IMG/VR virus record: IMGVR_UViG_3300027721_000001 | Span: 1-45,490 of that record | Direction: 5' to 3' (one strand) | DNA from: a virus | DNA: 45,490 nucleotides | In this document: positions 128 to 34,574 of the stretch, one piece after another | Layout: every line of letters begins with the position of its first letter | Numbering within the stretch: position 1 is the first letter of the stretch | Made by a program: the position numbers and the translations under genes | Notes under the pieces: generated by a model | Told to the model about the DNA's origin: nothing | Database searches by the model: none | The model's input: only the letters and a program-made list of their open reading frames with translations

Positions 128-996
128 TGATCGACCCGGGAACGGCAATTTTGGGCGGAGCGGCAATCTCCGGCATTGGGAGCTTGCTCGGTGGGCTTTT
201 CGGCGGACGTAAGCCGAAGGTTCCTGAGCTGAAGCCGATTAACTTTGAGCAGGAACAGACCAACGCTATCCGGCAAAACATTGCCGCGCTTGAGCCTGCC
301 ACCAAGCTGGCCGAGAAGACGACATCCGCCGAACAGTCATTGCTTGAAACTCAGCTTCGCCGTGCGATTCCAGGCTATGACCAGATCGTTCAGCAGGCTG
401 GGCAGAATATCGGCGCAGCGTTGCGCGGTGAGCTTTCGCCCGAGGTTTCCGCTCAGGTTCAACGCTCGACCGCTGGACGCGCTTTGTCTGGAGGATTCGG
501 TGCTGGCTCTGGATTTGGCCGTTCGCTGACCGCTCGCGATTTGGGTCTGACATCGATGCAGATCCAGAATCAGGGTCTTGCTCAAGCTCAGAACTTCATC
601 CAGCAGCAGCGCACGTTTGGCATGGCTCAACCGTTCTCAGTGAGCAGCATGTTCATCACACCCGCTCAACGGATCGGCGCGATTCAAGAACAGCAGGCCA
701 GAATGTACGGGCGTGATTTGACTGCCGCTCAGGTGGCTGCCGCTCCGTCGCCGATGCAGCAGGCGGCGCAAACTGCGCTTACCAACTTTGGCGGTGTTGC
801 CGGTGGCGCGCTGTCGCAGTACGGAATGTATCAGGGGTTGATGGCTGGCCAACGTGGGCCGTCACCATCGTACAATCCTCAGAACGATCCTGAGATTTAT
901 CCGAATCTTTATGCGCCGACTCCGACGAGGTCGGATATCACACCGCTTTCTACGAGTCTATTCCCGGAGTACGGCTCTTCAAACTACGGACGCTAA
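127..996 (+). CDS. Internal virion / DNA-ejection-like protein (289 aa)
   Basis: Residues 5-27 are glycine-rich and hydrophobic, able to insert in a membrane. The rest is rich in Gln and Ala, with helical stretches and a glycine-rich turn near residues 120-135. This composition and its place right after the tail adaptor gene resemble the small internal virion proteins that podoviruses eject with DNA; that role is inferred from context. The start is supported by an AAAAGGA ribosome-binding site 7 bases upstream. It is followed 4 bases later by the next gene. A structural scaffold of the tail hub is an alternative. Confidence 0.72.
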   Translation: MIDPGTAILGGAAISGIGSLLGGLFGGRKPKVPELKPINFEQEQTNAIRQNIAALEPATKLAEKTTSAEQSLLETQLRRAIPGYDQIVQQAGQNIGAALRGELSPEVSAQVQRSTAGRALSGGFGAGSGFGRSLTARDLGLTSMQIQNQGLAQAQNFIQQQRTFGMAQPFSVSSMFITPAQRIGAIQEQQARMYGRDLTAAQVAAAPSPMQQAAQTALTNFGGVAGGALSQYGMYQGLMAGQRGPSPSYNPQNDPEIYPNLYAPTPTRSDITPLSTSLFPEYGSSNYGR

Positions 997-1000
997 TCTT

Positions 1001-2308
1001 ATGGCCGACCAATCTCTTCAAGCATTTCAGTTAGGTGCAAATCTGTTCGACCGCGCACAGACGCAGGCGCGGATGATGGAGCAGTTTCAGATGCAACTGG
1101 CTGATCAGGAGATGCGTAAGCAACAGGCGGATCTTCAGAATAAGATTCAGCTCAACGCTTACAATCAGGCACTGGATGAGCAGGCTAAGCTAACTGAAGA
1201 TTACGGCAACATGCAGACCAATCTGCAACTGCGCGACGAATTCTTCAGGAATCCAAAGGCTGAGTTTCCAAAATTTCTTCCGGTTAAGTCCAAGGCAAAT
1301 CAGAACGTCATGTTCCAGATCAGCCAACAACTTGACAATTACGCTCCTCGCGCGCGACTCCAGAAATCCCTGCAAACCATAGAAAACAAGCAGCTAAGCG
1401 ATGCGGCTGATATTCAAGAGCTGTACAATGTTAAGGTTGTAACTCCAGAAGGTTCTATTGATCAGGTTGTTTTTGATCAGTACATGCCGAGGCTTTTGGA
1501 AACCCGAAAGCTGAAAGATTATAGCCAAGACGTAAGGGCAGCGTACACACAGACAGACAGCACTCTTCCGTTTGAAAAACGAATTGGAGATGCAATCAAA
1601 CTGGCCAAGGAACGCGGAAAATCTTCAACTGAAAGAACTCAGGAGAGGAACGCTGAACTCGCCATCTCTGAGTACACATCTGCTTTTGGAAAACCGGACG
1701 AGCAAACTGATGCTTTTATCAGAAACAACGCTCTGACTGGAAGGTGGAAACCTCCAGAAGGTGATGGGTTAAAAGAACTAACAGCCAACCAAGTTATTTC
1801 TAGAAAATCTAGCGATTTGGTCAAAAAACTTGATGAGTTTGAAAATAACTATGGACCTCAGTCTATTCAAAAGTATGTAGGAATTATTGACGGAAGGGTG
1901 ACTGATATTAAAAAGCGGTTGGCTGGGGCAAAGACTAAAGAGGAGAAGGACGCTTACGCGCTATTGCAACGATTCCAAGATGAATTTAACTCGGTTGCTT
2001 TTGCGAAGTCCGGTAAAGCTGTAACAAACCAAGAAATGCAGCGTTTGCTGGCCGCTCTAGGTAACGTCAAGAGCCAAAACTTTGCTGACGATGTTCGAAA
2101 TTTTGGAGTAATGGCGACTGAAGATTTATACGGAACAATTAATTCTCTTAAAGATACATATAGAATCACGCCCACTCAGGTTAGATTTGCCAACGATCTT
2201 ATTAAGCAGTTCAAGCTGCCACTGACTCCGTTCGGCCAGCAGCAGACTCCTGCCGCCGCTCCTTCATCTGGCGGAATCAAGATCGAATCCGTCGAAGTCA
2301 TCCCGTAA
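1001..2308 (+). CDS. Putative internal virion protein (435 aa)
   Basis: The start at ATG 1001 (MADQSLQAF) lies 5 bases after the previous stop; longer upstream starts would run through the preceding gene. The protein is almost entirely predicted helix: residues 10-60 are rich in Gln, Met and Ala, and the rest is charged. The C-terminus has a Pro/Ala/Ser-rich tail. No enzyme motif is visible. Sitting between two other candidate ejection proteins, it is probably packaged in the head or tail core. No clear Shine-Dalgarno sequence precedes it. Confidence 0.7.
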   Translation: MADQSLQAFQLGANLFDRAQTQARMMEQFQMQLADQEMRKQQADLQNKIQLNAYNQALDEQAKLTEDYGNMQTNLQLRDEFFRNPKAEFPKFLPVKSKANQNVMFQISQQLDNYAPRARLQKSLQTIENKQLSDAADIQELYNVKVVTPEGSIDQVVFDQYMPRLLETRKLKDYSQDVRAAYTQTDSTLPFEKRIGDAIKLAKERGKSSTERTQERNAELAISEYTSAFGKPDEQTDAFIRNNALTGRWKPPEGDGLKELTANQVISRKSSDLVKKLDEFENNYGPQSIQKYVGIIDGRVTDIKKRLAGAKTKEEKDAYALLQRFQDEFNSVAFAKSGKAVTNQEMQRLLAALGNVKSQNFADDVRNFGVMATEDLYGTINSLKDTYRITPTQVRFANDLIKQFKLPLTPFGQQQTPAAAPSSGGIKIESVEVIP

Positions 2309-2314
2309 TAACTT

Positions 2315-5300
2315 ATGCCAAAATTTGCTGTAACGGTTAACGACAACGGCGTTCGTAAGCGTGTTGTACTAGAGTCCGATACGCAACCGACTGAAGCTGA
2401 CGTCCTTTCAGTTTTGCGTGGTTCGGCGCAGCCATCAGGTCCAGCCACCATCGCCGAGATGCGTCGTCGAGAGGAGCAGGGCCAAGTCTCCGCGCTGACT
2501 CCTGCTCAGGTTCAGGCGCAAGTTGGCTCTCCTCAGCAGCTTGAGCAGGCGGTTCAGGATGCGAAGGATGTTGGGATGGGCGAGCAGTTTCTCCGTCAAT
2601 TTGGCCAAATGGCAGAGCCAACTGGACAAATCAGTCCGTTTGTCGGCGGAACTGAAGCTCGAATCGCTCCGTCTGGACAATTCACTCCGCTTGGTGCTGC
2701 TGAAGCTCGCGGAATGCGTCGTGGATTTGCAACGGGGCTTCCGATTGCAGGCTCTTTATTGGCTGCTCCATTTGTGGCTGGGATGACACCGCTTGCTGGA
2801 GCATTAACAGAAGCTGGCGTTGGACTTACAACTGCGGCTATTGGCCAAACAGTTTCTCCTGAGCCGTATCGAGCGGGAGAGATGTTTGCTCAAGCTATTC
2901 CTGGTGTCCCTGTCGCACAGCAGGCCAGAAAGCTGACTCAAGTGGTAAAAGAAGCCGGTGGAGGAATGCTGACTTCTGGCGCTCAAGCTGGACTCGAATC
3001 TCTCGATCAGGAATCGGCTGATTTTTCTGATGCCCTTCTTCGGACTGGTCTTGGTGGGTTTCTTAGCCCTGCTTTGAGCGGGTCTACTAGAATTGCTGGA
3101 GCTACTCTTCGCGCAAAAGGATTCAGTCCAAGAGCAATCGCTGCTGAGTTTCAACGTCCTTTTACCCAGCAATTTATCCAAGATCGAGCTGATGAAATCA
3201 GCAAGGAAATGACTCGGCAGGGAGCTGTAGGCATCTCCGAGCGTTTTGCATCAGACTTGGCTAGAACGCTTTATTCGCCTAATTCAGGGCTGAATCCTCA
3301 ACAGTTTTCGGACCAGATTAAAAATGTTGTCGTTCAGTCGTTAAACACTGCTGGTTCTTCCGGCCTTACAGGACAAGAGCTTTCTTCCGCCATCAAAGGT
3401 GAACTTGAAAAGTTTGTTCGTGCTGAAGATCAAGCTGCTGTCAACGCGGCCAATCAGGCAGTCGATAATTTCGTAAATCAGTCCGAGGCGCTTAGAAACC
3501 GAGTCACTAACATTGTTGATCGTAAAAATGCGTCCCGAGATGCTCGCCTGACCGACGTTGTTCGTTCGGTTGAAGGTCGTATTGGAATTCAAGAGCAGCA
3601 GGTTCAAGATCAGCTTGATCAGCTCAAGGCTCAACGTGCAGCAATCCCCAGTGAGTCTGTTGAACGTCAAGCTCTCGATGCTCAGATTTCCGATCTGAAT
3701 CAGCAGATAGCAAGCATCAAGGCTGGCCAAGCTGCCGGATATGGTCCTGCCGCTGGAATCAGCAAAGAGGAGCTTGGACTTCAGGCTCAAGAGCTTGCCC
3801 AGAAAGAGCTGAGTGATTTCAAGGCTGAGCGAAAAAAGGGGTACGGACAGTTGGAACCTCAACTTGAAAAAATCTCCATTACTGTGATGGAGAAAAACAA
3901 AAAAGGCGTAGAAGTTCCAAAGCAAAAAACCGTCAATCAACTCAGAGAAGAAAGAACCAAAATCCTCGATGAGATTGACTTCAACAAGCAGGTTCAAAAG
4001 GCTGATTTTTCAGTTTTTGAAAGGCTTGATGATGTAAATTCACAAATCGACAAGGCTCTTGAATCTAATGCTGGCCTGAAGGCTGCGCTTCAAAACGAAA
4101 ACCGGCTCTACAAAGAGGGCATAACTCGGTTCAAGGGTGTCTTTGCTGACAAAGTTTTGCGAGAGGCTGGTGAGGCTGGCGGCATGCCTGGAATCGTATC
4201 GACGATTGCTGGGGCAAGTGGCGCACAGAATCTCAAGTTGATTCAGAATTTGCTTGGAAACAGATACGAAGGTTTTAAGCCGAATCTAAGGCAGTACGTT
4301 TACACTCAGATTCGGGGAGAAAATCCGAACCAGTTTTTGGAGAAGATTTCAGCCGGAAAATCTGGAATTGGAACCGGCATTCAGAAGGAGGTTATTGAAG
4401 AGCTGTTTCCTGATTTGAGCGAAATCAATCAGGTTGCAACCCAGTACAACGCGCTAATCAACAGGAGAGCCTCTGTCGAACAGCAAGCGAACCAGCTCAA
4501 GAAAAACATCGAAGACCTCCAGTCTCAGGTTGACGAGGGTGTTCAAGGTGCAAAGCAGAAGATGGACGCGCTGCTGGAGCAGAGGAACCAGCTTGAAAAA
4601 ACAAAGGCCAACCTGACATCTGAAAACATAACCGGGAGAGAATCTCGGATTATTGATTCTCTTGGAAAAATTAAGGCTAGGGTGCGCGATGCTGGGGCTG
4701 CAAAGCAGGATGTACTCGACCAGCTCAAGCTCGATGACGTAATCCGAAACCTTGAGGTTGAAACAGGAAAGCCGCTCTACAAGGCGCTTGAAGAAGCTGT
4801 CGAAACCACAAGCGCGGCAAAAGATAAGTTTGCTGCAATAGTCAACAAGGCTTTGCAACCTGGAGGTCAGTTGGATCAATTTGAGCCGACTAGCCTTATC
4901 GACTTTTTGACCGCTAAGGGTGAAGAGTCTTTGGGTTACAGAAGCCAACGATTCCTGAAGGCTGTTGGCCAAGCTCGTCCTGATCTGATCGGTGATGCTC
5001 AGAACATCTTGGTTGGAAGGATTATCGCCGAGTCTGTTGATGGAAACAAAATCAACACTGCAAAGATCAAGGATCTTGTTGGCTCAAAGGAATCTCCGGG
5101 GAAATATTACGGAGTCACAAAAGGACTTCTTGGTGATGACGGCGTATCCAAAATCTCCAAGATTGCCGACCAGTTGGAACAAGTTTCTGATCTAGGCAAG
5201 CCGAGTGTTTTCAGCAAGGTTGTCGCCCCGACGATAGCGGGATATCTCGGATATCAGGCTTACGGGCCGCTTGGTGCCGGTGCTGGCCTTGGTGGATACG

Positions 5301-5512
5301 CCGCATACTCTGGGCTTCGCAAGGGTCTTGAGGAAAGCGTTCAGGCAGCGATTGGCAAAATCATCAAGACTCCAGAATACCTGAACATCGTTTCAAAGCC
5401 CATCGATACGGCAACGCAGGCTCAAATGAACAAGATTGAGAGAATGTGGCCGCGCATATTGAAGATGGAACAGGATCGTTATCAGATGATTAAGGAGGAT
5501 CTTGAGAAATGA
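2315..5512 (+). CDS. Large internal virion protein (1065 aa)
   Basis: This is the largest protein of the phage. The N-terminal third has Gly/Ala-rich hydrophobic stretches (about residues 140-190). The middle (about 400-500, 540-620 and 720-790) is long Gln/Glu/Lys-rich coiled coil. A second Gly/Ala hydrophobic segment lies near residues 965-1000, before a charged end. Size, membrane-like segments and position resemble the core proteins that podoviruses eject to extend the tail through the cell envelope. I see no lytic transglycosylase motif, unlike T7 gp16. It starts 6 bases after the previous stop without a clear ribosome-binding site, and its stop overlaps the next start as ATGA. Confidence 0.75.
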   Translation: MPKFAVTVNDNGVRKRVVLESDTQPTEADVLSVLRGSAQPSGPATIAEMRRREEQGQVSALTPAQVQAQVGSPQQLEQAVQDAKDVGMGEQFLRQFGQMAEPTGQISPFVGGTEARIAPSGQFTPLGAAEARGMRRGFATGLPIAGSLLAAPFVAGMTPLAGALTEAGVGLTTAAIGQTVSPEPYRAGEMFAQAIPGVPVAQQARKLTQVVKEAGGGMLTSGAQAGLESLDQESADFSDALLRTGLGGFLSPALSGSTRIAGATLRAKGFSPRAIAAEFQRPFTQQFIQDRADEISKEMTRQGAVGISERFASDLARTLYSPNSGLNPQQFSDQIKNVVVQSLNTAGSSGLTGQELSSAIKGELEKFVRAEDQAAVNAANQAVDNFVNQSEALRNRVTNIVDRKNASRDARLTDVVRSVEGRIGIQEQQVQDQLDQLKAQRAAIPSESVERQALDAQISDLNQQIASIKAGQAAGYGPAAGISKEELGLQAQELAQKELSDFKAERKKGYGQLEPQLEKISITVMEKNKKGVEVPKQKTVNQLREERTKILDEIDFNKQVQKADFSVFERLDDVNSQIDKALESNAGLKAALQNENRLYKEGITRFKGVFADKVLREAGEAGGMPGIVSTIAGASGAQNLKLIQNLLGNRYEGFKPNLRQYVYTQIRGENPNQFLEKISAGKSGIGTGIQKEVIEELFPDLSEINQVATQYNALINRRASVEQQANQLKKNIEDLQSQVDEGVQGAKQKMDALLEQRNQLEKTKANLTSENITGRESRIIDSLGKIKARVRDAGAAKQDVLDQLKLDDVIRNLEVETGKPLYKALEEAVETTSAAKDKFAAIVNKALQPGGQLDQFEPTSLIDFLTAKGEESLGYRSQRFLKAVGQARPDLIGDAQNILVGRIIAESVDGNKINTAKIKDLVGSKESPGKYYGVTKGLLGDDGVSKISKIADQLEQVSDLGKPSVFSKVVAPTIAGYLGYQAYGPLGAGAGLGGYAAYSGLRKGLEESVQAAIGKIIKTPEYLNIVSKPIDTATQAQMNKIERMWPRILKMEQDRYQMIKEDLEK

Positions 5513-5796
5513 AAACCTCCCTCTCCAAAAAAGGTAACACTTGGCGTGGCCGTAAGGTGACGCTCAATTCACCTCGAAAGATCAATGGTGTTACTCCGTA
5601 TCCGAAGAAGAAAACGGCATTCGTCAAGAATTCCAAAGGAAACGTGGTTGTCGTGCATTTCGGTGATGTTCGGTATTCCGACTTCACCAAGCATCACAAC
5701 AAGAAACGTCGGGCAAATTTTCGCTCGCGGCAAAACTGCGAGACGGCAAAAGATAAAACAACGGCTCGTTACTGGGCTTGCAACAACCTCTGGTAA
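5509..5796 (+). CDS. Small basic phage protein, DUF5754-like (95 aa)
   Basis: The protein is very basic, with conserved-looking segments KKTAFVKNSKGNVVVVHFGD, RRANFRSRQNC and ARYWACNNLW. From memory this pattern matches a family of small proteins of unknown function in phage structural regions, labelled DUF5754. The start overlaps the previous stop (ATGA) and is preceded by AAGGAGG inside the upstream gene, a good ribosome-binding site. A virion or nucleic-acid-binding role is possible but unproven. Confidence 0.8.
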   Translation: MKTSLSKKGNTWRGRKVTLNSPRKINGVTPYPKKKTAFVKNSKGNVVVVHFGDVRYSDFTKHHNKKRRANFRSRQNCETAKDKTTARYWACNNLW

Positions 5797-5800
5797 ATTT

Positions 5801-5989
5801 ATGGATAAGATGAAACTTGGCGGTGGAGGTCGTTACGAGAAGCTGATCGGCAATCTTGAGAAGAAAGGTGTGAGAGAACCTCGCGCTCTTGCGGCTTACA
5901 TCGGACGCAAGAAGCTCGGCAAGGCAAAGTTCCAATCGCTCGCTGCGAAAGGTCGTCGCCGTGCCGAGCGTGAGAAGGCTAACGCTTAG
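5801..5989 (+). CDS. Small basic conserved phage protein (62 aa)
   Basis: A Lys/Arg-rich protein with the segment PRALAAYIGRKKLGKAKFQ, a pattern that recurs in small phage proteins of unknown function. The start is ATG 5801, four bases after the previous stop; a longer reading from 5585 would overlap that gene. It is the last gene of the rightward block, and its last 11 bases overlap the 3' end of the opposing primase-helicase gene, so the two converging transcripts have no spacer. Confidence 0.8.
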   Translation: MDKMKLGGGGRYEKLIGNLEKKGVREPRALAAYIGRKKLGKAKFQSLAAKGRRRAEREKANA

Positions 5990-7817
5990 GATATTTGCCT
6001 TTGGAATGCGGTTTCTTGGCCGACTCCTTATCAACGACAAACTTCTCAGGTTCCGCGTAGTTCCATGAGATGTCGCCGCCCGTACCACGCTGGATCATAA
6101 TCGATCCGGTGACTTTTCCTTCCTTGTCAGTCATGCCGGAACGGTCGGCCCGTTTTGCCATTCCAAGCATGAACTTGCGCGGGTTGTTGAAGCCAACCTC
6201 CTTCATCACAATCACCTCGCGCGCCCAGTTCGTTAGATCGGACGATCCGAATCCTGAGTAGGCCAAATCTGCCACGCTCTCCGGTTTGTCATCCTTGCCC
6301 TTCGGCTTCGGGAAGTGATGGACGAGTACCAGGACAACACCTGTCTCCATCATAATCGGCTGGAGCAGATGCCGCGTGAAGTTCGCGCAGACCTCGATGT
6401 CCGCAGGATTGCCGCCCATGTAGGAGAGCAGCGGATCGATGTAAACCACGTCAGCCTTGGTCTTGCGAACGAGGCGGCGGAGCATTGTCGCGAAGTCTGT
6501 TCCGGTTCGAACCGTTTCGCGGAAGAAGAGCATGTCAACACTCCGCAATCCTCGCTCCCAGTTCTCCTTTCCAAACGTCATCTGAGCCGCACCCTTGAGT
6601 GCGTCATGCTGATCGGCGATGTCGTTTTCCGCCTGGATGTAAGCCACTTTTAACGCCCGGACGGGCTTTACGCCAAACCATGCTTCGCCGGACGCCCACT
6701 TCATCCCCTGATACGCGGCCATCGAGCTTTTGCCGCAACCACTTTGGCCTACGAAGAGAAGCGATGAACCGCGACGTAGCCATCTGTCACCGATCAGATT
6801 GTCAGGATCATTCTTCGGGTCGTACTCGATGATGCTATCGAGCGAGAACTCCTGAGGCATGTCCTGCGACTCCAGATAGTCCGTGAACGCATCCCAGTTC
6901 ACGACACCCACATTGATGGCCAACAGCTTCTGCTCTTTGCCATCGCGCATCACACCGGCCAACCGGCTGAACCTGCTCGCGTTCTTGTTCTTTGGGTCGA
7001 TGCCGAGAGCTTCTAACTGGCGATAGACGACATCACGACGCTCGCTCCATTCCTCCTTGTTCGCCGCATCGACTCGTACCCAGCCGTGCAAGCTCTTTCC
7101 GCCGGAATCGATGACGACGGACATCGGCAATTTGGACTCCTTGAGGATTGTCCACTGCTCGTCCTTCGTCTTCTCGTCCATCTCGACCAGCACATGGCGG
7201 AACGCTGCCACGCCTGAATCAGAACCACTCTCATCGAAGCACGGGTTGACGCGGACGTATGCGCCACGGCTGTCAGGACCGTTCCACATGGCGCTGATGG
7301 GCGGAGTGAAATGGTTCTTAATCCATTCGTCGCGCTTGAGGAATGTACCCTTGGAGTTTGGCCGAGTCCGACCTTCGTCGTCGCTTACGATGTCATTGCA
7401 GATGCAGACAACTTCATCTGGTTCAAAGCAGGCTTTTAAGAAATCTATGGTTGAAAATCGAAAGTCCGATTGCGGAATTGCTTGGATCTTTCGCACCACG
7501 AACTTGCCGGTTGGAGACACCGGAGTTCCGCCCTGCACCATGCTGGAATTCGATTCGAGAAGCCATCCACGCGGCTTGTCGTGCGGAACCTTGGACGCCT
7601 GATCGAGCTTGTGCGCCAACTCGTTCGGCTTCCACGGTGGGAGGCATTTCGAGTTGTACTCATGCAGGAGTGTCTCCGCATCCCCCGCATTCAGCTCAAA
7701 ACCGTGTATGAGCGCGGTTGCCACGGCGAAGGTTGCGTTATGACCGCCCTGACCTGCGACGGCACCTGGCGTGTTTCTAAGCCACGCACGCGCACGGTCG
7801 ATCTTTGATTGATTCAT
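5979..7817 (-). CDS. Primase-helicase with RepA-like ATPase domain (612 aa)
   Basis: Three parts are visible. Residues 15-75 form a small helical domain (GGHNATF, HEYNSKCLPPW) like those linked to primases. Residues about 200-295 look like an archaeo-eukaryotic-type primase: VEMDE at 211, SGGKSLHGWV at 238 and SRFSRLAGVMR at 281. Residues 345-560 are a RecA-fold ATPase with Walker A GQSGCGKS at 357, a Walker B VVYIDPLL and VLVHHFPKP. It likely primes and unwinds phage DNA for the host polymerase. The start overlaps the previous stop (ATGA). Domain boundaries are judged by eye. Confidence 0.88.
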   Translation of the reverse strand: MNQSKIDRARAWLRNTPGAVAGQGGHNATFAVATALIHGFELNAGDAETLLHEYNSKCLPPWKPNELAHKLDQASKVPHDKPRGWLLESNSSMVQGGTPVSPTGKFVVRKIQAIPQSDFRFSTIDFLKACFEPDEVVCICNDIVSDDEGRTRPNSKGTFLKRDEWIKNHFTPPISAMWNGPDSRGAYVRVNPCFDESGSDSGVAAFRHVLVEMDEKTKDEQWTILKESKLPMSVVIDSGGKSLHGWVRVDAANKEEWSERRDVVYRQLEALGIDPKNKNASRFSRLAGVMRDGKEQKLLAINVGVVNWDAFTDYLESQDMPQEFSLDSIIEYDPKNDPDNLIGDRWLRRGSSLLFVGQSGCGKSSMAAYQGMKWASGEAWFGVKPVRALKVAYIQAENDIADQHDALKGAAQMTFGKENWERGLRSVDMLFFRETVRTGTDFATMLRRLVRKTKADVVYIDPLLSYMGGNPADIEVCANFTRHLLQPIMMETGVVLVLVHHFPKPKGKDDKPESVADLAYSGFGSSDLTNWAREVIVMKEVGFNNPRKFMLGMAKRADRSGMTDKEGKVTGSIMIQRGTGGDISWNYAEPEKFVVDKESAKKPHSKGKYPKR

Positions 7818-11998: not shown

Positions 11999-12201
11999 GG
12001 CAACGGCCCTCCGTTCTCCCACAGCAGCAGATCGGCGCGGAGAGCGTCGTTCTCTCGCTCTAGTTGGGTGATGCGCATGTGCTGCTCCGCTAGTCGCTCC
12101 GCTGCTTCAGCGACTGCTGCGTTGGCCACGCCGTCCTCGGATTGAATATCCTGAGACAATATCCGCATGGCTGCGATTAGTGTTTCGGTTGAGGTTCTCA
12201 C
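11995..12201 (-). CDS. Coiled-coil protein, paralogue of the gene at 12392 (68 aa)
   Basis: GTG 12201 overlaps the previous stop as GTGA and follows a GGAGGCC ribosome-binding site. The first 50 residues match those of the protein at 12392 (TSTETLI-AMRILS-DIQS-DGVANAA-AEAA-RL-EQ), and the DNA is also nearly identical for about 80 bases. It is a recent tandem duplicate. The rest is a coiled coil. Function unknown. Confidence 0.7.
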   Translation of the reverse strand: MRTSTETLIAAMRILSQDIQSEDGVANAAVAEAAERLAEQHMRITQLERENDALRADLLLWENGGPLP

Positions 12202-12395
12202 GGCTTGGCCTCCTTGATGATTAGAAGTACACCCATGTAAACCATCCAAACGGCTCCGATCGGTATCAGCCAAAACAGCCGGAAGATCTGTCCAAAGTCA
12301 TACTGCCCGCTGGAACGGTATGGCCTGAACATGACGCACAACATAATTACTGTAATAAGTATTGGTATGATCCACGATTTGATTGTGATAGTCAC
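12198..12395 (-). CDS. Two-helix membrane protein (65 aa)
   Basis: GTG 12395 overlaps the previous stop as GTGA after a GGAGGCC site. Two hydrophobic segments are clear: residues 7-24 (SWIIPILITVIMLCVMF) and 39-60 (LFWLIPIGAVWMVYMGVLLII), with a short basic loop. It is inserted between two duplicated genes. The role is unknown; holin-like topology is possible but its early position argues against it. Confidence 0.65.
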   Translation of the reverse strand: MTITIKSWIIPILITVIMLCVMFRPYRSSGQYDFGQIFRLFWLIPIGAVWMVYMGVLLIIKEAKP

Positions 12396-12661
12396 GGCTT
12401 GGCCTCCTTGGCTTTTTCAATCAACGCAACTACCGGACATGGTTCGCCGTATTTGTGTTGATGTTTTTTTGAATGATGAACCCATGAGCAGTGAAGTACT
12501 ACTAAGTCCAAAGCCTCCTCCAGCCGCTTGATGCGGTCTTGTTGTTCTTCCAGTCGCTGCGCTGCTTCAGCAATCGCTGCGTTTGCCACGCCATCGTCGG
12601 ATTGAATATCGGATGACAATATCCGCATGGCTTTGATCAGTGTTTCGGTTGAGGTTCTCAT
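12392..12661 (-). CDS. Coiled-coil protein, duplicated N-terminus (89 aa)
   Basis: The first 50 residues are shared with the protein at 11995. A helical middle (QRLEEQQDRIKRLEEAL) is followed by a Cys/His-containing end (HCSWVHHSKKHQHKYGEPCP) that could bind metal and is absent from the paralogue. It ends KEAKP, as do two other proteins nearby, because the last codons contain the ribosome-binding site for the next gene. Confidence 0.7.
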   Translation of the reverse strand: MRTSTETLIKAMRILSSDIQSDDGVANAAIAEAAQRLEEQQDRIKRLEEALDLVVLHCSWVHHSKKHQHKYGEPCPVVALIEKAKEAKP

Positions 12662-12849
12662 TGCTTTGACTTCATGGTTGGTAATTCGATCAACGAATCA
12701 TCTCCGAAGCAGTCCGAGTAATCATCGGCATGATCGTAACAGAACGTCGCGCATGTTTCAGGGCAACGATGCGTGGCCGGTGCGCCACATTCGGCAACGA
12801 TGTCGCCGTGAGTCAGAATCCAACAACATCTCGGAATGCTCGCGCTCAC
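12658..12849 (-). CDS. Cys/His-rich small protein, GTG start (63 aa)
   Basis: GTG 12849 overlaps the previous stop as GTGA; ATG 12915 is possible but lies deep inside the previous gene. Eight Cys and three His residues (RCCWILTHG, CGAPATHRCPETCATFCYDH, DC) look like a one- or two-zinc finger. No family named. Unknown function. Confidence 0.62.
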   Translation of the reverse strand: MSASIPRCCWILTHGDIVAECGAPATHRCPETCATFCYDHADDYSDCFGDDSLIELPTMKSKQ

Positions 12850-15616: not shown

Positions 15617-16411
15617 CTAACTCTCGGATTTATTCAGCACCCATTTCGGGCATGAAAGTGTTTGCGTTGCTGTCGGATAGGCTGGCCAACTGTCCAGTGC
15701 GCGGCACTCGTGGAGCATTGAGATGGCTTTACGCCGCAGGTTCTCACCGGCCTGAAGCCACTCGATGTCCAGCTTGTAGATACCGACGGCATACGGCGCT
15801 TTGCGTTCGACGGCGACGAAGATGAAGTTCTCCGCTCCGGTCATCGCCAGATAGTGAGCGGCTTGGATGTGGTAGCCGAACGAGGTGATTGTGCGGCTGA
15901 ACGCTTCAGGCGATGCGTCGTCCGTTGTTTTCACATCGACTAGGGTGTGGTCCTCGACCCACAAATCGGGACGGGCTTTCAGAGGTAGGCCAGTCTCCTC
16001 ATCTTGAGCGAATACGCTCGCCTCGATCTTGTGTGGCAGGTTGATGATGTCCCAGAACGGATGGCGGCGGACACTGTTCGCGACGCCCTGGACATCAATG
16101 TCCTCGGCATGAGTCAGGTGGATGCGGCTCTTATGCTGCTCTTTCCACGCTTTACCCTCCTTGGTACGACCGTCGATGTCCGGTGGGACAACGGCGACAA
16201 CCTGAGAATAGAGTTGCGGCTCCAGAACAGCGGTATGAATCGCCGTGCCAAGCTGCATGGCTTTCGTCGGCTCCTGATGCTCCTCCAGCGCGGCTTTGTA
16301 GTGCGCCGGTGACTTGAGGATCTTGGTCATCATCGACTTTGAGAGAGCGTCAACGGCGTGATACTGGGCCGCTGGCATGTCGAAGTTAATGTGGCGGTTT
16401 TGGATGCTCAT
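15617..16411 (-). CDS. RecE-like exonuclease, PD-(D/E)XK fold (264 aa)
   Basis: Core motifs of phage RecE/YqaJ-type nucleases are present: GTAIHTAVLEP (56-66), KARPDLWVEDHTLVDVKTTDD (146-165) with the metal ligands Asp 149, Asp 159 and Lys 161, and FGYHIQAAHYL (178-188). It should resect double-stranded DNA 5' to 3' so that the RecT-like protein two genes upstream can anneal the exposed strands. Its start overlaps the previous stop (ATGA). Confidence 0.9.
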   Translation of the reverse strand: MSIQNRHINFDMPAAQYHAVDALSKSMMTKILKSPAHYKAALEEHQEPTKAMQLGTAIHTAVLEPQLYSQVVAVVPPDIDGRTKEGKAWKEQHKSRIHLTHAEDIDVQGVANSVRRHPFWDIINLPHKIEASVFAQDEETGLPLKARPDLWVEDHTLVDVKTTDDASPEAFSRTITSFGYHIQAAHYLAMTGAENFIFVAVERKAPYAVGIYKLDIEWLQAGENLRRKAISMLHECRALDSWPAYPTATQTLSCPKWVLNKSES

Positions 16412-16626
16412 TTGTCTGCCTCACATTGGCCTTCGTAATTTCTCATTCCATCTACCGCTACTGCCACGGCAACGATCCGTTCAATGACTTCCATGTCATC
16501 TTCCGACACCTTCTCATTCCATCTAAGGTTTAAGTTGCCACGTTCGACAGCACCTTGAAGCAAGGCAGCGATGTAAATGTCGATTCGGGTTGGAGACTCT
16601 TCGTATGCAAGTAGTTTAGGGTTCAT
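16408..16626 (-). CDS. Hypothetical protein between RecT- and RecE-like genes (72 aa)
   Basis: A small helical protein (IDIYIAALLQGAVERGNLNL, MEVIERIVAVAVAVDGMRNY). It is linked by ATGA overlaps to the RecT-like gene upstream and the exonuclease downstream. No family recognised; an accessory role in recombination is inferred from position. Confidence 0.68.
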   Translation of the reverse strand: MNPKLLAYEESPTRIDIYIAALLQGAVERGNLNLRWNEKVSEDDMEVIERIVAVAVAVDGMRNYEGQCEADK

Positions 16627-17459
16627 TCGAGTGTGGGAGCTGAAAATGCCTTAGCCTTGGAGATGAAACCATCAGGATCGGATACGATCATGTTGGCCAC
16701 CTTGGTCGAGACATCGCGGAAGTTCTGACCTTCCTTGATCAGGTTCTTGCTGAGCAGGAACGCATTGGCGATGTCCGCATGCGGTTCGAGAATCTGCTCC
16801 AGCTTGTCTGTCAGCGAGAAGGTCGATTCCGGCGTCACATTGACCGTCTGGCGCGTTGGAGTGGGTTGGGCGGGTGGTGACGGCGGAACAAGTGGTGACG
16901 GCGGAACAGAGAAGTCGGCCACTTCCTCGGGCGTGAATCGGCCTTGCGTGATTCGCGGATCGAGCATGCGAGTCGCTTTGCTGATGACCCGCGCACGGAG
17001 CATCTCAGCGGGGAACTTCGCCCATCCACTGCCAGGCTTTGCGGGGATTAGACCGGCAATCTTCGCATCCTCTGCGGTGAATGAGACGCGAACCTTCTTC
17101 ACACCCTTGCTGAAGTCGGCAATCGCCGCCACCGCATCGAACTGAATCCAGTCGATGTCCCATCCGGCATTCATCAGACCGGAGAGCATCGACTCGCTCT
17201 TCATGGTGATGTTGCCATTGATCAAATGGTTCTCGCGCTTCCAGGAAAGCGGCGTCATCCGGCTGGCGATGCATTCCAAAGCGAGGACATAGCCCTGCTC
17301 AGGTTTTGTCGCCCCAAACATTCCCGAGTGTGCGATCCAATCGCCCATAGTCTTCACCGCATCCATCGGACTGTCGATGCGGTCGTAGAAGTCAGGACTG
17401 GTCGGACTCAGAGGTTGCGGTGCTGTCAATGGAACTAGGTTGTTGCTGCTGCTGCTCAT
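16623..17459 (-). CDS. RecT-like single-strand annealing protein (278 aa)
   Basis: The RecT pattern is clear at residues 143-180: GSGWAKFPAEMLRARVISK, then RMLDPRITQGRFTPEEV; ECIASRMTPLSW (62-73) and SMLSGLMNAGWDI are further family-like segments. After a Pro-rich linker (186-204), partly made by an 18-base tandem duplication at 16874-16909, comes a helical tail. ATG 17459 overlaps the upstream gene by 68 bases; ATG 17366 would avoid this. It pairs homologous ssDNA and works with the RecE-like exonuclease. Confidence 0.85.
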   Translation of the reverse strand: MSSSSNNLVPLTAPQPLSPTSPDFYDRIDSPMDAVKTMGDWIAHSGMFGATKPEQGYVLALECIASRMTPLSWKRENHLINGNITMKSESMLSGLMNAGWDIDWIQFDAVAAIADFSKGVKKVRVSFTAEDAKIAGLIPAKPGSGWAKFPAEMLRARVISKATRMLDPRITQGRFTPEEVADFSVPPSPLVPPSPPAQPTPTRQTVNVTPESTFSLTDKLEQILEPHADIANAFLLSKNLIKEGQNFRDVSTKVANMIVSDPDGFISKAKAFSAPTLE

Positions 17460-21766: not shown

Positions 21767-21805
21767 TGGATGCTTTCGTTGGGTTTGAGGAAGGACTTGT
21801 GGCCT

Positions 21806-21845
21806 ACCCTTTCGCACCACGCTTGCGGCATGATGCGCGGAGGGT
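21806..21845 (-). ncRNA. Intergenic hairpin C, 5+10 bp stem
   Basis: On the minus strand an outer 5-bp stem ACCCT/AGGGT, an internal loop (3 and 2 bases) and a 10-bp stem CGCATCATGC/GCGTGGTGCG enclose loop CGCAA. The two wobble pairs are G-U on the minus strand and mismatches on the plus strand, so the RNA is read from the minus strand. It has the same size plan as elements A and B but no shared 14-base start. No U-run follows, so it is not a simple terminator. Confidence 0.55.
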
Positions 21846-21856
21846 GGGTCAACGGT

Positions 21857-22147: not shown

Positions 22148-22474
22148 TTAAAACAACTGAATGACCAGTCCGCCGTCGAATTCGACGACTTGCGTTTGAT
22201 TGCGGAGCCAGTCTAGAGCCTCTGGTTCGCAGTCCGCGTCATCCCCGCAAACCTCATCGAAACCGTACTCTTTCGCAGCGGCCAGTGCGGACGAATGCTC
22301 CGCCCATTCGCAGCAGATGGCGATAGGGTCAAGGGTGAGTTCAGTGTCTGAATCCTCTTCGACTTGTTCAAAATGTTCAAATAAGGCACGGCGCGCGTTG
22401 ACGCTGAATTGAGATTCACGGCCGCATAGGCGAAACGCTTCGATGAATTGGAATTCGGTTACAATGGTTTTCAT
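22148..22474 (-). CDS. Acidic hypothetical protein (108 aa)
   Basis: Helical start (FQFIEAFRLCGRESQFSVNA, RRALFEHFEQVEEDSDTEL) and an acidic middle (YGFDEVCGDDADCEPEALDW). High acidity and small size recall DNA-mimic anti-defence proteins, but no family match is claimed. Its 5' leader holds candidate RNA element A and the spacer AATCAACAAATCCAATCC before ATG. Confidence 0.7.
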   Translation of the reverse strand: MKTIVTEFQFIEAFRLCGRESQFSVNARRALFEHFEQVEEDSDTELTLDPIAICCEWAEHSSALAAAKEYGFDEVCGDDADCEPEALDWLRNQTQVVEFDGGLVIQLF

Positions 22475-22492
22475 GGATTGGATTTGTTGATT

Positions 22493-22548
22493 CGGGATTG
22501 ATTGCCCGTTGCAACCTACGCTTTCGCATAGGCTGGCACGGGGAATCA
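22493..22548 (-). ncRNA. Candidate regulatory RNA element A
   Basis: Read on the minus strand it starts TGATTCCCCGTGCC, with TGA being the stop of the upstream gene. Outer stem CCCGT/ACGGG, a 2x2 internal loop, a 10-bp stem CAGCCTATGC/GCGTAGGTTG and a GAAA tetraloop follow. The CGGG of the outer stem can instead pair with CCCG 8 bases downstream, making a hairpin that ends 18 bases before the start at 22474. Both G-U pairs would be A-C on the plus strand. Element B has the same plan with different bases. Confidence 0.62.
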
Positions 22549-22785
22549 GACTCCCGAATAGTTTTGACGGGCTAGGATTGCGCTTTCGTAATCGTGTTCG
22601 ATTAACGGTTTAACTGGATAGACCACAGCCCGCTCACCCTTCCAAGCAGGACCGTAGACGGTAGATCCTGAGACTACATATCCAGCCTCTTGGAGTTCTA
22701 GCTTCTGGCTATCGGTGACAATTATGCCTTTTACTCTGCCAGCATTCGACAGATTAACGCTGTGTTTGATTTGATTTGTGGTCAT
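22546..22785 (-). CDS. Hypothetical protein (79 aa)
   Basis: Start ATG 22785 (MTTNQIKHSVNLS), just after the repeated leader AATCAAATCCC. Longer readings overlap the upstream gene. It has strands (GRVKGIIVTDSQKLELQEAG, YVVSGSTVYG) and a short helical end. No family recognised. Its stop is part of RNA element A. Confidence 0.68.
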   Translation of the reverse strand: MTTNQIKHSVNLSNAGRVKGIIVTDSQKLELQEAGYVVSGSTVYGPAWKGERAVVYPVKPLIEHDYESAILARQNYSGV

Positions 22786-22801
22786 GGGATTTGATTTGGA
22801 T

Positions 22802-23173
22802 TTATTCGGTGACAAGGGATTCTTCGGATTCAATGGCGCAGTGGAGTTCAAACCATACGCTTTCAAGTTCAGACGATACTTGCGCGATTGCTTCGGTGAC
22901 TTCGGCGGGGAATAAATCAGCGTTTTCCCCGCCCATTCCCCGATATCGGAAGGATTCGGCGGCCGCTGTCATGAATGAGAGCAAAGTCTCAAAAGCGGAT
23001 TCGATGGAAGGATTTCCGCGAAGCGTCAAATCGGTGACTCGGTGTTCACCGAACGGGCCGTCAAGGATGAAGCCGGACGGGGATAGACTTACGGTGATTT
23101 GCTCTTCTCCTTTGCTGATGCAAATGGCGGGGAGAAGGCGCGCTGAGATTAGGAATGGAGCGGATAGCTTCAT
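22802..23173 (-). CDS. Hypothetical protein (123 aa)
   Basis: A hydrophobic beginning (LSAPFLISARLLPAICI) leads to strands (EQITVSLSPSGFILDGPFGE) and a C-terminal helical pair (AFETLLSFMTAAAESF, VTEAIAQVSSELESVWFELH). No family recognised. Its leader holds candidate RNA element B and the repeated AATCAAATCCC before ATG. Confidence 0.7.
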   Translation of the reverse strand: MKLSAPFLISARLLPAICISKGEEQITVSLSPSGFILDGPFGEHRVTDLTLRGNPSIESAFETLLSFMTAAAESFRYRGMGGENADLFPAEVTEAIAQVSSELESVWFELHCAIESEESLVTE

Positions 23174-23193
23174 GGGATTTGATTTGATTTGAT

Positions 23194-23249
23194 CGGCTTT
23201 AATTCGCCGTCACGCCTCATGGTTGCCCATGAAGCGGCACGGGGAATCA
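23194..23249 (-). ncRNA. Candidate regulatory RNA element B
   Basis: On the minus strand it begins TGATTCCCCGTGCC, identical to element A and again including the upstream stop codon. Outer stem CCGT/ACGG, a 2x2 internal loop, 10-bp stem CGCTTCATGG/CCATGAGGCG and a GCAA tetraloop follow. CGGC can alternatively pair with GCCG 8 bases downstream, ending 20 bases before the start at 23173. Compared with A, stem bases differ but pairing is kept. Confidence 0.62.
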
Positions 23250-23579
23250 AATACCTTTGGAAATCAGAGCGTCGAATTCCGGTTCGAATGATGATGGCCA
23301 AGCGGGGAGCGGCGCATTCTGATCCGTATGGTGGCGGAAAACCCAGACTTCATTCTCCCATTTCGAATCGCGTTCGACGGAAGCGTATCCAGAGATGCGC
23401 TTGCCATTGATCCGGATGGATGCGGGGACACTAAAGTAGGTGTCAGCAGTCTCAGCAAGCTCCGCAGAGCGGACGATTCCATCGGCGCAAAGCAAACGGT
23501 GGCCGTTACGGGGATGCAACCCCCACGGATAGGAACGGGAAACGTGGGTTTTGCCTTTGGTTGTTTTGGTGATGTTCAT
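23247..23579 (-). CDS. Hypothetical protein (110 aa)
   Basis: Start ATG 23579 (MNITKTTKGKTH) follows the leader AATCAATCAAATCCC; a longer reading overlaps the first small gene. Strand-rich: YPWGLHPRNGHRLLCADGIV, YFSVPASIRINGKRISGYAS, KWENEVWVFRHH. No motif recognised. The stop is part of RNA element B. Confidence 0.7.
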   Translation of the reverse strand: MNITKTTKGKTHVSRSYPWGLHPRNGHRLLCADGIVRSAELAETADTYFSVPASIRINGKRISGYASVERDSKWENEVWVFRHHTDQNAPLPAWPSSFEPEFDALISKGI

Positions 23580-23599: not shown

Positions 23600-23704
23600 T
23601 TAGAATTGAGAGGCGAAGAAAAGGAAGTAAAAGGCGTAACCTAGGACAGCGTAGGTGATGCAAAAGGCTAGGAATGAAGAGAGCTTTTTGAACGCGGATT
23701 TCAT
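23600..23704 (-). CDS. Small membrane peptide, first early gene (34 aa)
   Basis: ATG 23704 reads MKSAFKKLSSFLAFCITYAV and continues to one long hydrophobic helix (residues 10-31) ending ASQF. The basic N-terminus would stay in the cytoplasm. It is the first gene after the divergent promoter region, so it should be made early and strongly. The role is unknown; altering the host membrane early in infection would fit. Confidence 0.62.
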   Translation of the reverse strand: MKSAFKKLSSFLAFCITYAVLGYAFYFLFFASQF

Positions 23705-23714
23705 TGCTGCGGAC

Positions 23715-23743
23715 AGACTAGGGTGGACGTGGTGGGGAGTCAA
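23715..23743 (-). promoter_or_regulatory. Putative early promoter (minus strand)
   Basis: On the minus strand TTGACT (complement of 23738-23743) and TAGTCT (complement of 23715-23720) are 17 bases apart, 11 bases before the first early gene. The -10 box is weak. Just upstream lies a 10-bp tandem repeat of GAAAAAGTTT (as read on the plus strand), with phased A-tracts that would bend DNA and resemble an UP element. Confidence 0.42.
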
Positions 23744-33938: not shown

Positions 33939-34574
33939 TCACGGATGCAAGTTTGCTCCATCTTGATACGCCAATCTTGGGAGAATTCCGTAAAACTTCA
34001 TGTGCGGAATCGAATCAACCAGCATCTGGATGTCGATTGGACACCAAACTTTCTGGTTTGTTTTCATTAGATCGCAAGCCCCACTGTAGTTGACGTAGTA
34101 ACAGTGCGTACACATGCCGCGTGTCAGCCGGTAAACGCTTCCGCCAATGTGCGTGTTCTCTTCGTACGGCGCAGCGCAACAGCTTCCGACGTAGATGACC
34201 TGCCAGTCTTCCGGTACATGCTCCAGCTCTTGAGTAAGCTGTTCCTTCCAGTTTTCAGACTCAAATTTGCAGTCATCTTCAACGATAAGAAACGGCTGAT
34301 CCTTGGAGTAAAGACCAGTTTCAACCGCCCACTTGATTGTGGCCCACACGGAGAAATGGCTAAGTCCAGCGACGATAGACTTCACCTGCATCCTCCCCTT
34401 GTCCTTTGAGTTGTAATACTCGGTGGAGATTCCGCAGTTGGATGCTCTAAAGCCGTAGATTGGGACAGCGTTTATCCCAAACTTTGCCATGTACTCAATG
34501 CACTCTTTTTCGCGCTTACCCTCTGGAAGCGAAACAATGAACGTAGGAGACTTTTCGATGTCTATTTTAATCAT
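33939..34574 (-). CDS. Glycosyltransferase family 25-like (211 aa)
   Basis: SPTFIVSLPEGKREKECIEY (N-terminus), AGLSHFSVWATIKWAVE (69-85), PFLIVEDDCKFE (94-105, with the acidic metal site near 99-101) and WQVIYVGSC are hallmarks of GT25 (LPS-type) transferases. It would add a sugar from a nucleotide donor. Its stop is directly followed by the start of the GH130-like gene, and its start overlaps the methyltransferase-like stop. Confidence 0.85.
   Translation of the reverse strand: MIKIDIEKSPTFIVSLPEGKREKECIEYMAKFGINAVPIYGFRASNCGISTEYYNSKDKGRMQVKSIVAGLSHFSVWATIKWAVETGLYSKDQPFLIVEDDCKFESENWKEQLTQELEHVPEDWQVIYVGSCCAAPYEENTHIGGSVYRLTRGMCTHCYYVNYSGACDLMKTNQKVWCPIDIQMLVDSIPHMKFYGILPRLAYQDGANLHP

Follow-up and report, generated by a model that had tools for sequence, protein, structure and literature searches.

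Elements A and B, two hairpins in the leftward operon of the viral DNA studied here, are, on comparative sequence and folding evidence, two members of a large, previously unnamed family of RNA hairpins. Members of this family start at the stop codon of the upstream gene and behave as connectors joining two independently exchanged genes.

Results

Two hairpins of common fold begin at stop codons

The window, i.e., the whole stretch of DNA that was analysed, is an IMG/VR virus record of 45,490 bases, in which the elements and the nearby genes all lie on the minus strand. The 14-mer TGATTCCCCGTGCC, which the preliminary description had reported as shared by A and B and as including the upstream stop codon, is present in the window in exactly two copies, both on the minus strand (22535-22548 and 23236-23249), and each opens with a TGA that is the in-frame stop of the preceding gene. 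A pattern combining the shared word, a GNRA loop and AC matched the window twice, compared to no match in 100 shuffles. The features of the region are the following:

23247-23579, minus strand: gene preceding B, coding for 110 aa without a Pfam match and with relatives in 13 viral loci
23199-23249, minus strand: element B, the fold of A with compensating changes, GCAA loop, TGA stop at nt 1-3, 63.8 bits
22802-23173, minus strand: gene downstream of B (123 aa)
22546-22785, minus strand: gene upstream of A (79 aa)
22498-22548, minus strand: element A, a 51-nt hairpin, nt 1-3 being the TGA stop of the upstream gene, 79.2 bits
22544-22548/22499-22503, minus strand: stem P1a of element A
22538-22542/22505-22509, minus strand: stem P1b of element A, followed by the 2x2 loop
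22526-22535/22512-22521, minus strand: stem P2 of element A, closed by the GAAA loop 22522-22525
22475-22497, minus strand: AC-rich leader from element A to the ATG at 22474, without a Shine-Dalgarno sequence
22148-22474, minus strand: gene following A, coding for 108 aa and with relatives in 31 viral loci
21799-21851, minus strand: element C, a divergent third copy (TGACCCACCCTCC...GGGTAGGCCAC), the stop of the upstream gene lying 8 nt before the element

Both A and B fold as had been claimed, with an outer stem of 4-5 bp, a 2x2 internal loop and a 10-bp stem capped by GAAA or GCAA, but the outer stem proved longer by 5-6 bp (TGATT/AATCA) past a one-base mismatch, giving a total of about 23 stacked positions. 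The full layout of A and B is TGATT.CCCGT..(10 bp).GNRA.(10 bp)..ACGGG.AATCA. Folding z-scores were −7.0 for A and −5.5 for B, and no shuffled sequence was equally stable. Element C scored 20.3 bits against the covariance model described below (E = 0.084; E = 0.0066 in the larger-record search), and its subtype also occurs in the viral loci L068, L075, L107 and L111.

Other observations were made in the window. A 47-aa hydrophobic ORF (23600-23743, minus strand) appears first in the leftward operon, and a stretch much like it precedes the elements of loci L038 and L111. Elsewhere, positions 12058-12216 and 12518-12676 hold the two copies of a 159-nt direct repeat, with 79% identity and a distance of 460 bases, and 33939-34574 (minus strand) codes for a glucosyltransferase-like protein (phrog_2835, E = 2.8e-8).

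The hairpin family is widespread among viral loci

Scanning viral contigs for the TGATTCCCCGTGCC 14-mer yielded 70 stretches, which were then judged by their fold; outside the window the element was present only in L038 and L068, the other occurrences being due to chance. A pattern restricted to the lower stem brought further copies, nine of which were aligned to build a covariance model (R1). Separately, the proteins of the flanking genes served to retrieve 31 and 13 loci; as this was done independently of the RNA, these loci were not selected for the RNA. The covariance model detected the element in nearly all of the protein-fetched loci, and it did so once more in loci that a broader pattern scan had supplied. 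After mirror hits on the opposite strand had been dropped, there were 254 non-overlapping matches (150 distinct sequences) in 117 viral loci, some of which are fragments of one contig, so that the number of independent phages is smaller than 117. The frequency of GNRA and of GATTCCCCG is partly built in because both sat in some of the fetch patterns; covariation, stop-codon register and neighbour exchange are unaffected by this pattern-based selection of loci. In 17 larger viral records the copies were all on one strand and, in most records, inside a single stretch of 1-2 kb.

The preliminary description had recognised no known riboswitch, and the Rfam 15 covariance models gave no match at gathering score; a relaxed search returned only a chance hit to mir-204 on the other strand (17.5 bits against 48.4). 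Pattern searches of cellular genome contigs gave 16 hits, all at or below 18.9 bits, which look like chance. In isolated phages, we found no DNA match for the region or for the gene upstream of B, and a search with just the element returned nothing beyond a 28-base hit to an ssRNA phage (E = 0.4). Distant relatives of gene 22148-22474 (35-38% identity) are encoded by the Microcystis phages Ma-LMM01, MaMV-DC and Mic1; the covariance model had no match in the regions of these phages that hold the relatives. Our literature searches found no description of the hairpin motif. It had been proposed that a covariance model should return more copies before unrelated genes, with significant covariation, and that the elements would be called into question if no others turned up or if a known family matched; further copies were found before unrelated genes, with significant covariation and no Rfam family at gathering score.

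Covariation and strand preference point to selection on the RNA

The family fold comprises a lower stem with one mismatch (P1, 5 bp + mismatch + 5 bp), a 2x2 loop, an upper stem of usually exactly 10 bp (P2) and a GNRA cap. That the stem bases of A and B differ and yet stay paired extends to the family. In the nine-copy alignment 99.4% of cells were paired, a value that fell to 21-48% when partners were slid by 1-3 columns. For covariation, we wrote an R-scape-like test, which scores 95 distinct gap-free sequences by mutual information (average-product correction) and has a phylogeny-aware null, in which the substitutions of each branch are replayed at random variable columns. Six pairs covaried at E < 0.05 (11-40, 14-37, 15-36, 19-32, 22-29 and 23-28), all of them in the fold.

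The restriction of G-U pairs to the minus strand, seen first in A and B, likewise held for the whole family: the coding strand has 265 G-U pairs and few A-C mismatches at paired positions, and it gives the more stable fold in 134 of 146 distinct copies. Together, the G-U pairs and the better folding of the coding strand argue that selection acts on the gene-strand RNA. The same one-strand preference and the anchoring to stop codons disfavour an integron attC or REP-like DNA element.

Conserved unpaired positions are confined to the GNRA loop and the small internal loops, without a ligand-binding core, and the sequence of the upper stem (in some copies AAUCCAUUC-GAAA-GAGUGGAUU) varies by compensation while its length, pairing and GNRA cap are retained. 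The riboswitch-type regulation implied earlier is at odds with this lack of a core and with an upper stem free to vary in sequence, and ligand sensing thus finds no support. A hairpin of fixed length and cap with a variable stem, together with the conserved TGATTCCCC arm and the clustering of copies in one 1-2 kb stretch, is what an RNA-binding protein such as a phage or host repressor, an antitermination factor or a stability factor could read. We nevertheless regard such a protein site as very unlikely: there is no candidate protein, and a site of this kind by itself demands neither the second hairpin described below nor the position of the stop codon.

The element starts at the stop codon of the upstream gene

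An upstream frame of 40 codons or more could be detected for 241 copies, and in 219 of these its stop is helix position 1; over all frames, the stop at this position is TGA in 215 cases and TAA in 6. The start codon of the next gene, which is nearly always on the same strand, usually lies 15-33 nt beyond the element, behind an AC-rich leader with 8% G. Subtypes beginning with TGACCCATCC, TTATTTCTCGCG or TGAATTCTG retain the architecture with the stop 4 to ~15 nt upstream. Such hairpins occupy five of seven consecutive gaps in L162. The TTATTTCTCGCG subtype sits inside a longer stem (CCAGGA...TCCTGG) with a 9-bp second hairpin of unrelated sequence (L162 3887-3983, L111 4565-4661, L099 3430-3480, L101 3873-3923 and L138 6580-6630). 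Shine-Dalgarno-like sequences precede only 2 of the 36 larger ORFs of the window, which suggests a host that starts translation without them. The term leader RNA, under which A and B had been introduced, is incomplete, since they begin at the upstream stop and behave as connectors of two independently exchanged genes.

Strong hairpins following stop codons could also be ordinary intergenic transcription terminators or attenuators. We give this reading almost no credence, as a same-strand gene nearly always follows within 15-33 nt and a run of four Ts was present in 0 of 161 copies within 14 nt of the helix end (T fraction 0.21); without a U tract, an intrinsic terminator was rejected.

Genes on both sides of the hairpin are shuffled

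Neighbouring genes were grouped into families by the last 60 residues of the upstream and the first 60 residues of the downstream proteins. The 160 elements analysed fell between 25 upstream and 24 downstream families in 71 combinations. At the DNA level, 167 pairs of elements are 85% identical or more in the 180 nt upstream and are followed by unrelated genes, and 101 pairs present the converse case, with alike downstream and unrelated upstream genes. Gene 22148-22474 alone was found behind at least eight upstream gene families, with the element in between. Duplication of the hairpin along with paralogous upstream genes was rejected: the upstream genes are dissimilar, and the element is tied to neither neighbour. 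These comparisons show that, given such a connector at each junction, genes can move as self-contained cassettes.

A plausible engine of this shuffling is a pair of adjoining genes on the same strand:

16623-17459, minus strand: RecT-like annealing protein (phrog_561, E = 6.5e-6)
15617-16411, minus strand: RecE-like exonuclease (phrog_412, E = 1e-77), adjoining the RecT-like gene

The repeats might then be mainly short homologies for a RecE/RecT-type exchange of small genes, in the manner of the PeSL discussed below. The 71 family combinations, the 167 and 101 pairs alike on one side and unrelated on the other, and the RecE-like and RecT-like genes of the phage all fit such recombination junctions. 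Recombination, however, needs identical sequence, whereas the copies diverge widely, keep their pairing and have G-U pairs on one strand only. Divergence of the hairpin with preserved pairing indicates selection at the RNA level, so that shuffling is more likely a consequence than the function of the repeats, and we find their role as junction homologies quite unlikely.

A second hairpin excludes the first

The 3' side of the outer stem can alternatively pair with the leader to form a hairpin, P3, at the sites claimed for it in the preliminary description:

22493-22508, minus strand: P3 of A, CGGG 22505-22508 with CCCG 22493-22496, excluding P1b; z-score −1.80 (A alone)
23194-23209, minus strand: P3 of B, CGGC 23206-23209 with GCCG 23194-23197; z-score −3.09

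These hairpins end 18 nt (A) and 20 nt (B) before the start codons at 22474 and 23173, respectively. The P3 of element C was not convincingly formed (z-score 0.27). For tests of P3 across the family, the 3' fragment was defined by opening the strand on the 3' side of the internal loop, at column 39/40. The mean folding energy of these fragments was −7.6 kcal/mol with their own leader, compared to −5.7 kcal/mol (sd 0.17) with swapped and −3.1 kcal/mol with shuffled leaders. Relatedness was controlled for with pairs of elements at least 90% identical over the first 40 nt and differing in their 3' arms. Among these near-identical pairs, the own leader gave the better energy in 151 cases and the exchanged one in 5, with 83 ties (mean difference 3.2 kcal/mol). 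An earlier contrast based on contiguous stems (73 for, 66 against, 94 equal) had missed the longer bulged P3, because one leader class forms the bulged stem CGG.GAATC/GATTCCCG. A block permutation by arm type likewise favoured matching of arm and leader (10.14 against 8.74, sd 0.34, maximum 9.64 of 300). P3 is also kept at the same place in subtypes of unrelated sequence, where it reaches up to 9 bp.

From these pairing comparisons, the second hairpin is real, conserved and mutually exclusive with P1. To this extent the switch design proposed for A and B stands, but self-switching does not: P1 was present in the minimum-energy fold of 128 of 130 intact copies. As P1 wins in the intact RNA, P3 would need a trigger that removes or covers the 5' arm.

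The elements resemble T7 processing signals

The family would work most like the early-mRNA processing signals of phage T7, to which it may be related; size, position and loop agree, with an internal loop midway along about two helical turns. The T7 hairpins R0.3, R0.5, R1, R1.1 and R1.3 have an upper stem of 9-13 bp, an internal loop and a lower stem; R0.3 and R1.1 carry a GCAA loop, like B. R0.5 overlaps the upstream stop and R1 and R1.3 begin 3-6 nt after it, these three lying 10-24 nt before the next start. The best match of our covariance model in T7 500-7000 was the upper hairpin of R1.1 (5860-5886), a weak match of 12.3 bits (E = 0.15). The T7 hairpins were folded at their presumed cut positions; that of R1.1 (5887/5888) adjoins the end of the match at 5886, and R1.1 folded as AAGGUCAUUC-GCAA-GAGUGGCCUU above the internal loop, to be set beside the AAUCCAUUC-GAAA-GAGUGGAUU of some copies of the family. 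R1.1, a standard RNase III substrate, is a 60-nt RNA from between T7 genes 1 and 1.1; its internal loop measures 4/5 nt, and cleavage yields pieces of 47 and 13 nt (PMC6121014). Unlike the T7 sites, the family has a common sequence frame (TGATTCCCC...), a symmetric 2x2 loop, a stop codon at helix position 1, a conserved P3 and copies shuffled among many genes.

By this analogy, we propose, giving the idea about an even chance, that A and B serve as RNase III-type signals for mRNA processing between genes, in a new, elaborated form. The comparisons above show that, in the mRNA of the leftward operon, the region after the upstream stop folds into a hairpin of about 23 stacked positions, or about two helical turns. 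Since no RNase III-domain protein is encoded by the phage, the enzyme is taken to come from the host: a dsRNA-specific endonuclease that would cut on the 3' side of the internal loop, in the way RNase III processes T7 early mRNA. The predicted cuts are at about 22509/22510 in A (from T7 R1.1) and 23210/23211 in B. Such a cut would split the neighbouring messages and leave the upstream message with a stable 3' hairpin. Deprived of its 5' partner, the released 3' arm would pair with the leader instead and form P3 at a distance of 1-3 nt from the new 5' end. In 93% of the 3' fragments the hairpin begins 0-3 nt from the predicted end, a distance that partly reflects the placement of the cut site by analogy with T7. 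So placed, P3 should shield the downstream message against 5'-dependent decay, and translation would begin about 20 nt further on, without a Shine-Dalgarno sequence. A strict position of the stop codon is not an RNase III requirement, and no P3 is known from the T7 processing sites. Stem-loops at the 5' terminus, e.g., those of ompA and papA, are a known means of slowing message decay (references in PMC3997798). Like these protective stem-loops, P3 would be placed at the 5' end of a message, with the difference that it would form only once the upstream arm is gone.

The main rival explanation does without a cut. A ribosome terminating at the TGA would cover the 5' arm (nt 1 to ~14), break P1 and let P3 form, and whichever of P1 and P3 is present would govern how accessible the next start is, so that the two genes are either coupled or insulated from each other. 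The footprint of a terminating ribosome is established, and the 5' arm is exactly what it would cover; the predominance of stops at helix position 1 (219 of 241 copies) and the conserved P3 also agree with such a switch, and without Shine-Dalgarno sequences, structure near the start may matter. The start codon is, however, free either way, being separated from the end of P3 by 18-20 nt and from that of P1 by about 25 nt. Moreover, the subtypes with the stop 4 to ~15 nt upstream, where a ribosome would barely reach P1, keep the design, several of them with P3, and the fixed 10-bp upper stem is left unexplained. We therefore judge a ribosome switch unlikely. A broader formulation, which we advance tentatively, is an event-triggered two-state RNA connector, anchored at the stop codon, in which either a cut or a terminating ribosome would flip the 3' arm out of the intergenic hairpin into a cap hairpin for the downstream message, so that each small phage gene would become an interchangeable mRNA cassette. 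If this is true, the use of a two-state RNA as the standard part of every shuffled junction would be without a described precedent.

Discussion

Two other kinds of repeated phage elements invite comparison. The ESAS of cluster K mycobacteriophages are 17-bp imperfect inverted repeats tied to a 13-bp start-associated sequence (SAS); they precede a subset of non-structural phage genes, their function is unknown, and they remain with the same gene families across genomes (PMC3203893). Like ESAS, the elements are repeated imperfect inverted repeats placed just before phage genes; unlike them, their start is tied to the upstream stop and their neighbour genes are exchanged. The 13-bp SAS, GGGATAGGAGCCC, was not found next to the start codon, where the leaders are AC-rich. 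PeSL of T4-type phages, as summarised in a later article, consist of an early promoter and a terminator-type stem-loop (Arbiol 2010 and Comeau 2014, via PMC4503421). By that description, the elements are like PeSL in being stem-loops at junctions of shuffled small genes and differ from the terminator-type stem-loop by the absence of a U tract. The family fits the full definition of none of the three, i.e., T7 signals, ESAS or PeSL.

The early regions of phages are mosaics of small genes, in which it is rarely visible how a new gene acquires a bounded message. In the present case the flanking genes change, but one covarying RNA part stays in place and marks each junction. Should cutting and refolding of this RNA prove true, it would explain plug-and-play genes in a phage without Shine-Dalgarno signals, provide a searchable signature for the hypervariable early regions of uncultured phages, and give synthetic operons a compact element with which to keep genes apart.
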